Shown here piece by piece: positions 6,095 to 10,602 of a stretch of 52,798 nucleotides of DNA. The notes beneath the pieces were generated by a model that had not been told where the DNA came from, ran no database searches, and worked only from the letters and a program-made list of their open reading frames with translations. How positions within the stretch are numbered: position 1 is the first letter of the stretch; the number at the start of each line of letters is the position of its first letter. The stretch covers positions 1 to 52,798 of the forward strand of contig VXMU01000094.1 in NCBI GenBank assembly GCA_009840945.1, in the 5' to 3' direction. Position numbers and translations under genes: made by a program. Source of the stretch: Chloroflexota bacterium. GTDB taxonomy: Bacteria; Chloroflexota; Dehalococcoidia; UBA2979.

Positions 6095-6201
6095 CGGCGT
6101 CCGGAGGTGCGGGGGAGGACGGCGGGACGGCTTCGGCGACCGTCCCGATGGCTCATGGTACGCTCACTTGCGGGCTCCCCCAAGCGGACTGCGAGGCGTA
6201 C

Positions 6202-6825
6202 GTGGAGCTACCCTTCGGCTGGCCCGGCGGCGACTGGCAGACGACCGCGAAGCTCGTCGGCTTCATCATCGGCTCGTACCTCTTCCTGATCTGGATCGCC
6301 TCGGTCCTGTGGGCGTACCGCGACATCCGCAGCCGCACGCGCGACATCGCCTCGCAGACGATCGGCATGTCGATCATCATCCTGCTGCCGCTCGTCGGCG
6401 TGCCCGCGTACCTCATCGCACGGCCTCGCGAGACGCTGCGCGAGGCGTATGACCGCCAGCTGGAGCAGGAAGCGATCCTGTCCGACCTCCACGCCGTACC
6501 GACGTGCCCGGAGTGCCAACGCCCCGTCGACCAGGACTGGGCGCTCTGCGCCTTCTGTAGCTACCACCTGAAGGAGCCGTGCGTGGAGTGCGGGCGCTTG
6601 CTGCAGAACGCCTGGCGTCACTGTCCGTACTGCTCGGCCACGCGCCCGCGGGCGCGCGTGGCGTCGGACGCCCGCACGCGTGAGCAGCCCGAACCCCCGG
6701 ACGAGCCCCTGGACGGAGCGCACGTCGAGGATGTCGCGGAGCCCGCGGCACGACCACCGGCTGCCGAGACCGTGCCCATCTCCGGGCGTCCCGGCCGGGG
6801 TCCGTCCCGGCGGCGCTCCGGCTAG
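6202..6825 (+). CDS. Membrane protein with double zinc-ribbon domain
   Basis: Start GTG 6202 chosen (track: 6148); N-terminal hydrophobic segments LVGFIIGSYLFLIWIASVLWAY and IGMSIIILLPLVGVPAYLIA, then CPEC..CAFC and CVEC..CPYC ribbons. Confidence 0.7.
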   Translation: MELPFGWPGGDWQTTAKLVGFIIGSYLFLIWIASVLWAYRDIRSRTRDIASQTIGMSIIILLPLVGVPAYLIARPRETLREAYDRQLEQEAILSDLHAVPTCPECQRPVDQDWALCAFCSYHLKEPCVECGRLLQNAWRHCPYCSATRPRARVASDARTREQPEPPDEPLDGAHVEDVAEPAARPPAAETVPISGRPGRGPSRRRSG

Positions 6826-6915: not shown

Positions 6916-7092
6916 TCAGCGCCGGAGCATCCGGCGCAGTCGCCGCGTGAGCCTGCGCATGAGGAACACCGCGTTGAGCATGTCGTACATGAACGTACGA
7001 CGTTGCCCGCGGAGTTCGTGACGCTCGCGGGCGCGCCGTGCGCCGGCGTTGGCGTGCAACTCCGACATCGATCCGCCGGGTCCGAAGGCCAT
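6916..7092 (-). CDS. 58-aa uncharacterised small protein, paralogue 2
   Basis: Translated by hand: MAFGPGGSMSELHANAGARRARERHELRGQRRTFMYDMLNAVFLMRRLTRRLRRMLRR*; RBS GGGAGG upstream; about 52% ungapped identity to the 7122-7298 product; absent from the ORF track. Confidence 0.75.
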   Translation of the reverse strand: MAFGPGGSMSELHANAGARRARERHELRGQRRTFMYDMLNAVFLMRRLTRRLRRMLRR

Positions 7093-7121
7093 GGCGACCT
7101 CCCTTGCTGCGATCCCGCCCC

Positions 7122-7298
7122 TCAGCGCCTGAACAGCCGCGCCACGCGCCCCGCCAGCCGTCGCACCAGGAAGACGGCGTTGAGCAGGTCGTGCCCGAAC
7201 GTGCGGCCCTCGCCGTGCATCCGCTCGCGCTCGCCCACGCGCCGGACTTCCTCGTCCGCGTGCTGCTGCGACATGGGGCCGAAGGGCCCGAGCGTCAT
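7122..7298 (-). CDS. 58-aa uncharacterised small protein, paralogue 1
   Basis: Translated by hand: MTLGPFGPMSQQHADEEVRRVGERERMHGEGRTFGHDLLNAVFLVRRLAGRVARLFRR*; GGGAG upstream; tandem paralogue of 6916-7092. Confidence 0.75.
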   Translation of the reverse strand: MTLGPFGPMSQQHADEEVRRVGERERMHGEGRTFGHDLLNAVFLVRRLAGRVARLFRR

Positions 7299-7329: not shown

Positions 7330-7914
7330 CTAGGAGAGCCCTTCCTCGATCAGCGCACGCATCTCGGAAGCCGAGGCGTGGCGCCAGCCGGGGGCGAGCT
7401 TCCAGGTCTCCTCGTTGTAGCGTGCGCGGGCCTCGTCGAACTCCGGCGTGTTCCGCTCCACGCCGCTGAGGATGTGCCGCAGGCCATCCATCTCCTCGTT
7501 CGCGACCACGGGGCGCTCGATCCAGTGGCCGAGGTAGTTGTGGTCGCCGTCGTAGAAGACGATGGTCGGGATCGACTCGAACTCACCCTGGTTGAGGAAC
7601 TCGGACATGATGTCCTTGTTCTTGTCGCGGAAGAAGATCCGCAGCTCCATGCCGGTCTGCTCGGCGATCTTGGCGATCACCGGGATGCCGCGCCACACGT
7701 CCGGGCACCAGTCCTCGCCGAGGCACAGCGCCTTCACGCCGCGCTCCTCGACCATCGTCTTGATCGCCGCGATGTCGGCGGAGTCGGGGTCGAACTCCTC
7801 GTAGTGGCGGCGGAACTCGGCCTGCCGCACCTCGATCTGGCCCATCCACTCCTCGAACGTGGGGATCCCCTCGGCGAAGCGCTCGGGCGTGACTACGGAC
7901 GTCTCACTGGCCAT
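7330..7914 (-). CDS. Thioredoxin-family protein with single-Cys WCPD motif
   Basis: MASETSVVTPERF...KALCLGEDWCPDVWRGIPVIAKIAEQTGMELRIFFRDKN...SIPTIVFYDGDHNYLGHWIERP; ATG at 7914. Confidence 0.8.
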   Translation of the reverse strand: MASETSVVTPERFAEGIPTFEEWMGQIEVRQAEFRRHYEEFDPDSADIAAIKTMVEERGVKALCLGEDWCPDVWRGIPVIAKIAEQTGMELRIFFRDKNKDIMSEFLNQGEFESIPTIVFYDGDHNYLGHWIERPVVANEEMDGLRHILSGVERNTPEFDEARARYNEETWKLAPGWRHASASEMRALIEEGLS

Positions 7915-8008: not shown

Positions 8009-9025
8009 CTACGCGTTGCCGCGCGAGGCGTCCGAGGTCGCCTCGTCGACGAATCGCGCCGCCTGCTCGCGCAGCGCGCTCTCCGCGTCCAGGTCCTCGG
8101 CGCGCGCGTAGGCGGCCGCGGCCCACAGCAGCGCGCCCAGCCGTTCGCCGCGCCCGGCGGCCGGCGCGTCCACGAGCGCCTCGACGGCATCGCTCAGCGC
8201 GGGCAGGGCGGCGTCGGACGTCGGAGCGTCGGCGAGGCCCGCCCGCGCGGCGCGGCCGATCAAGGACTGAGCGCGCTGGAGTGCGGGCAGCGCGAGGGGC
8301 AGCGAGGCGAACGGCGAGTCGTCCTCGCCACTCTTGCCGGCCTCGGCGCGCTCGGCGGCCTTGATGGCGTCCCAGCGCTCCCACTGCTCCTCGGCGGTCG
8401 AGCCGTGGTCGGCGTCACCGAAGACGTGCGGGTGGCGGCGCACCATCTTGCGGGCGATCGTCTCGGCCACGTCGTCGAGTGTGAACGCACCGCTCGTCTG
8501 GGCGACCACGGCGTGGAAGAAGACCTGGAGCAGGATGTCGCCCAGTTCCTCGCGCAACCCCTCCAGGTCGCCCCGGTCGATCGCCTCGATGGCCTCGTAG
8601 GTCTCCTCGATGAGGTATCCGCGCAGCGACTCGTGGGTCTGGTCGTAGTCCCACGGGCAGCCGTCGGGGCTGTAGAGCCGCTCCATGATGGCGCGCAGCC
8701 CGGCCAGGGAGCGGGCGTCCTGCTCGGGCGCGAGCGGCGCGACGAGCCACGCCTCGCCCCCGTCGAGCGCGGCGAGGGCGCCCACCGTCGTTTCGGTGAC
8801 CGCGCCGCCATGAAGCGACATAACCGCATGCCCGGGCGGATAGCGCTCGGCGACGACGCTCGACGCCCCCTCGCGCTGCGCGGCGAGCACGAGCAGCGGG
8901 CGCTGCGCATCGATGTGCGGGTGGTCGGGGTCGAAGGCCTGGACCTGGCTGGGGCGCAGCCCGAACGCCGCGATGACGGCGTCGAGGGATGGGGTGGCGC
9001 CGTCCGGGGACGTCACGGTGCGCAC
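8009..9025 (-). CDS. mazG: MazG nucleotide pyrophosphohydrolase with partial TP-methylase N-terminus
   Basis: RLYSPDGCPWDYDQTHESLRGYLIEETYEAIEAIDRGDLEGLREELGDILLQVFFHAVVAQ is MazG; second MazG-like segment at C-terminus. Confidence 0.93.
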   Translation of the reverse strand: MRTVTSPDGATPSLDAVIAAFGLRPSQVQAFDPDHPHIDAQRPLLVLAAQREGASSVVAERYPPGHAVMSLHGGAVTETTVGALAALDGGEAWLVAPLAPEQDARSLAGLRAIMERLYSPDGCPWDYDQTHESLRGYLIEETYEAIEAIDRGDLEGLREELGDILLQVFFHAVVAQTSGAFTLDDVAETIARKMVRRHPHVFGDADHGSTAEEQWERWDAIKAAERAEAGKSGEDDSPFASLPLALPALQRAQSLIGRAARAGLADAPTSDAALPALSDAVEALVDAPAAGRGERLGALLWAAAAYARAEDLDAESALREQAARFVDEATSDASRGNA

Positions 9026-9055
9026 CTGCTCGTGGGGGCTCGCGCCATGCCCGGC

Positions 9056-9063
9056 AGTATACT
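9056..9063. promoter_or_regulatory. Palindromic -10 element AGTATACT in divergent mazG / membrane-protein promoter
   Basis: TATACT ends 6 nt before the GTG at 9070 on +; the same palindrome reads TATACT on - upstream of mazG. Confidence 0.5.
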
Positions 9064-9069
9064 CGCGGG

Positions 9070-9822
9070 GTGCTGATACTCCGCAGCCTCGCGACCGCGC
9101 TCTTCATCGTCGCGGTGCCCGTGTTCCTCGTGCTCAGCTTCGTCCGCATCGCGGCGGTCGAGCCGCGCGTGCACGAGTACGGCTTCAGCCGCTACGACGC
9201 CGAGCAGCGCACGGGCATCGACCGCGCCGAGATCGACCGCGCCGCGCGCGAGATCATCCGCTACTTCCGCAACGACGATGAGCTGCTCGCCATCGCCGTC
9301 ACCGTCGACGGCGAGGAGCGCGAGCTGTTCAACGAGCGCGAAGTGCTGCACATGAAGGACGTGAAGGACCTGATCCGCCTCGCGTTCGGGGTGCACGAGC
9401 TTGCGTTCCTGTACCTCGTGGCGTTCGTCGTGGGCGTGCTCGCCTGGAACCGGGTGCGGCCGATGGAGGAGCTGGCCCGCGACGTGCGTGTCGCCGGGAT
9501 CGCTACCGTCGTGCTGCTTGTCGTGGCCGCGTCGGCTGTGGTGGTGGGCTTCGATGCGTTGTTCCGGCAGTTCCACGTGCTGTCGTTCGCGAACGACTTC
9601 TGGCAGCTCGACCCGAAGCGGGATCACCTGGTGCAGATGTACCCGCAGGGGTTCTGGTTCGACGTCACACTCGCCGTCGGGCTCCTCGCGGCCGCGTGCG
9701 GCGGCCTGCTGTGGCTGGCCGCGTTCGGCTACGAGCGATACGTGCGGCGCGAGGCGCCGGAGCCGCCTCCGACCGATGCGCCCGTCGTGGATGGTGATGC
9801 GGCGACGGAGCCTGGCGGTTAG
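9070..9822 (+). CDS. TIGR01906/DUF1461-like integral membrane protein
   Basis: Several TM segments and HVLSFANDFWQLDPKRDHLVQMYPQGFWFD motif; GTG start just after TATACT. Confidence 0.8.
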   Translation: MLILRSLATALFIVAVPVFLVLSFVRIAAVEPRVHEYGFSRYDAEQRTGIDRAEIDRAAREIIRYFRNDDELLAIAVTVDGEERELFNEREVLHMKDVKDLIRLAFGVHELAFLYLVAFVVGVLAWNRVRPMEELARDVRVAGIATVVLLVVAASAVVVGFDALFRQFHVLSFANDFWQLDPKRDHLVQMYPQGFWFDVTLAVGLLAAACGGLLWLAAFGYERYVRREAPEPPPTDAPVVDGDAATEPGG

Positions 9823-10058: not shown

Positions 10059-10328
10059 CTACGGGTCGTGGAACCACTCCTCGACGGTCATCTGGTCCGG
10101 GTCGGGCTGCTTCTGGATGCGGGCGTACTCGGCGGCCACGCCGGGGTCGTCGGCGCCGCGGTCGGCGCGCTGCGCGCCGGTGGGGATCGCGAAGCGCGAG
10201 GGGAGCCGGCGCTCGGTCTCCATCGAGCCGCACTCGGGGCACGCCCGGACCTCGTCCATCGTGGACATCGACCGGAGCTGGTCGTACTCGGACCCGCAGG
10301 CGTGGCAACGGTACTCGTAGATGGGCAT
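10059..10328 (-). CDS. FmdB-family zinc-ribbon protein
   Basis: MPIYEYRCHACGSEYDQLRSM...CPECGS. Confidence 0.9.
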   Translation of the reverse strand: MPIYEYRCHACGSEYDQLRSMSTMDEVRACPECGSMETERRLPSRFAIPTGAQRADRGADDPGVAAEYARIQKQPDPDQMTVEEWFHDP

Positions 10329-10353
10329 TGGTCGGCCTCCGTGCCGCCCGCGT

Positions 10354-10602
10354 CTAGAAGTCGTCGAACTCGAAGTCGTCGTCCAGCCCGCCCTCGGGGT
10401 CGAACGTGTCGTCGAGCGGCGGGCCGACGTCGCCGGTGTTGTAGCTGCCGACGTACGCGAAGCTCATGTTGAGCTTGCGCTCGGTCGACTTGGAGCCGCA
10501 GGTCGGGCAGGGGCGCGCCTCGTCCATGGCGGCGATGGAGCGGCGCTCCTCGTACTCCGCGTCGCAGGCTTCCTCGAGGCAGCGGTACTCGTAGATCGGC
10601 AC
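10354..10602 (-). CDS. FmdB-family zinc-ribbon protein, tandem paralogue with acidic tail
   Basis: [43 protein letters not shown]...DDDFEFDDF. Confidence 0.88.

Follow-up and report, generated by a model that had tools for sequence, protein, structure and literature searches.

Salmonella YjiS, a 54-residue protein of the DUF1127 family, associates with the inner membrane, and the residues DIGL have been named as conserved in that family (PMC11707872). On a broader scale, a global smORF catalogue holds 96.7 million small-protein families with at least three members, over half of which are genus-specific (PMC11364881). The 52,798-nucleotide stretch of Chloroflexota DNA analysed here (contig VXMU01000094.1; hereafter the window) encodes on its minus strand two adjacent 58-residue proteins, orf1 and orf2, which invite comparison with both. 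Like DUF1127/YjiS (PF06568), they are of about 50 residues, arginine-rich and devoid of a catalytic motif; unlike it, they lack the DIGL residues in all four proteins of the pair, two from each of the two species that carry it. Membership in DUF1127 was considered and rejected, PF06568 having no match at the locus and none above cut-off anywhere in these genomes, and the resemblance is of kind only. With the catalogue's genus-specific families the pair shares a length below 100 codons, the lack of a Pfam domain and confinement to one genus, and it differs from them in being a tandem paralogous pair whose locus history is resolved. Orphan small proteins of comparable type are common. The pair is genuine and its sequences are new, but as a genus-specific small-protein family it belongs to a very common and ordinary category. 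It leaves the understanding of known systems unchanged and adds to Chloroflexota genomes an unannotated small-protein family under selection.

Both reading frames are on the minus strand, start with ATG and comprise 58 codons, orf1 at 7122–7298 and orf2 at 6916–7092 with 29 nt between them, as a sequence-only reading of the window had placed them. Their products align without gaps at 30 of 58 identical residues, exactly the figure claimed in that reading, and the best identity reached by residue shuffles in 20,000 trials was 16. Neither had appeared in the open reading frame track, an absence that fits a cut-off of 60 residues, which both fall below and which is also the default of the ORF tool used here; cut-offs of this size hide real genes. 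Openness by itself is weak currency here: the first 16 kb of the window contain 101 open reading frames of at least 50 residues, open frames being cheap because the genome is G+C-rich. At the DNA level the two copies are identical at 118 of 177 positions, and their similarity in the antisense codon register (29/59) almost equals that in the sense register (31/59). Comparison of orf1 with orf2 alone thus leaves the coding frame undecided, and it is the comparison between species, described below, that settles it.

Profile or protein searches of the order, a rank that in this case coincides with the family, located the pair in two of 44 genomes. The second carrier, Chloroflexi SB0666_bin_12 (G035; VXTU01000140.1), belongs to the same genus and has both genes in the same order and at the same place. 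The two remaining congeneric species examined gave no sign of the pair, and no other convincing DNA or protein copy, nor any convincing further diverged copy, was found among the genus members examined. Searches of the same type found no relative elsewhere in samples of 393 genomes of the class and 399 of the phylum, samples that overlap with the genomes of the order, and tblastn against phage and plasmid records found no relative of either protein. Homologues in related Chloroflexota, which had been anticipated, were found in one congener and in no further genome searched; the distribution found spans a pair of congeneric species and does not extend to Chloroflexota in general. Weak matches in other genomes (E 0.003–0.1) were mostly partial and lay inside longer frames, and from the match table they were taken as arginine-rich chance. 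As the sequence-only reading had stated, the proteins fall into no recognised family: scans of Pfam, NCBIfam, PHROGs and PADLOC gave no match for either one, in Pfam none at E <= 1. A sequence search of the PDB returned matches at E 0.032 and 1.3, both weak and chance-like, and searching it by fold gave none for the predicted helix, as is expected of a single helix. With fewer than 100 residues, purifying selection on orf2 and no relatives found outside a narrow clade in the genomes sampled, the family would be classed among lineage-specific (orphan) small proteins.

The setting of the pair is far more widespread than the pair itself. Directly upstream of orf1 lies the gene for a thioredoxin-like protein (Pfam Thioredoxin_9; 7330–7914, minus), in which EDWCPDVW occupies the expected active site and the second Cys of the usual CxxC is absent. 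Farther upstream on the same strand is a MazG nucleotide pyrophosphohydrolase (8009–9025), and beside MazG, here and across most of the family, stands a Lit-family protein (PF07314, lipoprotein intramolecular transacylase; 9055–9822, plus). The convergent neighbour downstream (6148–6825, plus) combines a PLDc_N-like N-terminus with a double zinc ribbon. The gene order DnaG, RpoD, FmdB-like, Lit, MazG, thioredoxin, PLDc_N/zinc ribbon, PcrA/UvrD is kept in most of the family, the sole exception seen being another member of the genus (G036; L066 9511–10823), in which the thioredoxin gene lies inverted with respect to MazG and PcrA and the pair is absent. A further member, G037, in which thioredoxin was matched only distantly, stood outside the site comparison.

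A GC hairpin starts 23–41 nt past the thioredoxin stop codon in 16 relatives, in most of them built on GGCCGCCC...GGGCGGCC, and at 80 nt in one more. In the two carriers the pair separates the thioredoxin stop from a hairpin of this same type, and a permissive profile search up to 900 nt past thioredoxin at 27 other family loci revealed no hidden diverged copy. The conserved block and the closely following hairpin of the 16 relatives mark the pair as lineage-specific small genes in the tail of an old operon. On the simplest reading, a common ancestor of both carriers would have gained the pair, by origin in place or by insertion, within the narrow gap that separates thioredoxin from its hairpin; loss is disfavoured because many loss events would be needed across all other lineages. 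The sequence may have been born de novo or transferred from an unsampled source. With its conserved flanks and pair-free site in relatives, the locus offers a test case for small genes that arise or arrive in an existing transcription unit and then duplicate.

The signals that the sequence-only reading had noted around the pair are present. A Shine–Dalgarno-like GGGAG (7312–7308, minus) is located 9 nt 5′ of the orf1 ATG and is found in G035 too, and AAGGGAGGT (7105–7097, minus) lies about 5 nt 5′ of orf2, its G035 counterpart being GAAGGAGGT. Downstream of orf2, a GC hairpin of 10 bp with a 4-nt loop occupies 6893–6870 on the minus strand (GAGGCGGCCC-cggc-GGGCCGCCTC). It has no long U-run, and a promoter/terminator scan flagged no classical intrinsic terminator at this position because a T-run is absent. 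"Hairpin" is a safe description; as a terminator, possibly bidirectional, it is putative. In G035 the interval from orf2 to the hairpin contains AACCAACGAC, a unit of roughly 10–11 nt, repeated several times in tandem (L035:8383–8427), as against a single related copy in the window.

The orthologues in G035 are 78% identical to orf1 (G035:C36:49340-49513) and 93% identical to orf2 (G035:C36:49546-49719). Of the 19 codons that differ in orf2, 15 carry silent changes when read in the sense frame, against 1 to 7 silent in the other five frames; for orf1 the corresponding numbers are 9 of 22 and 1–8. For both genes, the summed BLOSUM score of the replacements is above zero in the sense frame only. 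Calculated by the method of Nei and Gojobori for this one species pair, dN/dS is 0.08 for orf2, in the range of the adjoining thioredoxin (0.12), and 0.37 for orf1, of which the N-terminal half gives 0.13 and the C-terminal half 0.57. When equal numbers of substitutions were placed at random, as few replacements were obtained in none of 2,000 trials for orf2 and in 2% of trials for orf1. GC3, at 0.84–0.97, likewise speaks for coding. Taken together, the dN/dS, silent-codon and random-placement results show beyond reasonable doubt that orf2 is a constrained gene, and that orf1 is a gene whose C-terminal half is under loose constraint. The dN/dS well below 1 that a coding pair should show is thus seen plainly in orf2 and with qualification in orf1.

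It follows that the pair is almost certainly composed of two genuine genes. A non-coding DNA repeat or structured RNA, open by chance, would account for the DNA identity of the copies, for their nearly equal antisense register and for the many open frames at high G+C, but it would not leave substitutions between species that are silent or conservative in the sense frame alone, a pattern that for orf2 is already contradictory to it. Moreover, Rfam has no match, and elsewhere in the genome the DNA of the pair finds only short GC-rich matches attributable to chance. We regard such a repeat as highly improbable, and the original description of the two frames as a paralogous coding pair holds. Synonymous divergence is higher between paralogues (dS 0.84–0.95) than between orthologues (0.34–0.40), which places the duplication before the split of the two species. 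This bears on whether the genes are young, born de novo in the recent past and then duplicated, and serve hardly any selected function or none. Presence in just two species and the fast-evolving C-terminal half of orf1 are what such genes would show, but purifying selection on orf2 is clear and neither copy has lost its open frame since the duplication, which preceded speciation, making this an improbable account.

AlphaFold2 models of either copy, built from four sequences and with a pTM of 0.35, consist of one helix (residues 8–57 or 9–57), with a mean pLDDT of 80–94 over residues 31–58. Residues 34–58 are more amphipathic than shuffles in all four proteins (P 0.014–0.042), tests that are not independent given that the proteins are related, and the basic amphipathic C-terminal helix that had been proposed is thereby upheld. 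Positions 34, 38, 41, 45, 48, 52 and 55, with a spacing of 3–4, are hydrophobic in all four proteins despite residue changes and are flanked by invariant arginines. The proteins carry a net charge of +4 to +11; their basic residues are arginine, 11–15 in 58 residues and several of them invariant, with no lysine. A conserved N-terminus, GPxGxMSxxHA, is followed by a charged middle region.

From their position, orf1 and orf2 would be co-transcribed with MazG and thioredoxin, and each would be translated from its own Shine–Dalgarno site. Each product may form a single helix whose C-terminal half (34–57) lies on the cytoplasmic membrane face or another anionic surface, presenting the N-terminus and the charged middle to a partner; the conserved core role would then fall to orf2, with orf1 as a partner copy that is diverging. 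Peripheral binding of the membrane (or other anionic) surface by the amphipathic basic helix is our first choice, held at somewhat less than even confidence and essentially a guess from composition and from the four-sequence models. Against it stands the observation that the C-terminal half of orf1, the supposed active helix, is the part most changed between species. A hydrophobic face with heptad-like spacing would be just as likely in a coiled coil, and so much arginine just as likely in an RNA or DNA binder; pairing of the two products as a coiled coil, or binding of nucleic acid through the arginines, fits these features nearly as well as a membrane helix does.

Were the proteins small RNA- or DNA-binding proteins, with the helix contacting nucleic acid (for example the ribosome or mRNA) and not lipid, the abundance of arginine, at several positions invariant, and the lack of lysine would be readily understood. 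The wide hydrophobic run LNAVFLxRRL is nevertheless unusual for a pure nucleic-acid-binding peptide and neither protein matched a nucleic-acid-binding family, and we consider this rather unlikely. Dimerization of the orf1 and orf2 products through residues 34–55, as an adaptor or regulator of thioredoxin or MazG, would draw together the seven conserved hydrophobic positions, the upkeep of two equal-length copies side by side in both species and their location directly behind thioredoxin and MazG. Most family members, however, have thioredoxin and MazG but not the pair, so any adaptor role must be dispensable, and this alternative too is an unlikely one. Small cationic amphipathic helices in tandem are also a feature of two-peptide leaderless bacteriocins, but secretion as such peptides is most improbable: no family match supports it, the location is a housekeeping one, and in both carriers the neighbours are thioredoxin, MazG, Lit, PLDc_N/zinc ribbon and PcrA, with no adjacent transporter or immunity gene. 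A bolder picture is of a family of recent origin in one clade of Chloroflexota, housed in the tail of an ancient operon and duplicated, in which orf2 would have become the core helix protein and orf1 its fast-evolving partner, the two working jointly either on the thioredoxin/MazG unit or at the membrane; we put this combination forward as doubtful.

Two further gene pairs lie in the window. On the minus strand at 10059–10602, two tandem FmdB-type zinc-ribbon proteins (PF09723; 89 and 82 residues) adjoin RpoD and make up another tandem pair of small proteins; both are present in G035 and are matched only weakly in other relatives. At 1313–2108, also on the minus strand, a FitA-like ribbon-helix-helix antitoxin (PF22513) is followed by a PIN-domain protein (PF01850), a toxin–antitoxin pair of the FitAB/VapBC type that adjoins a methionine sulfoxide reductase gene.
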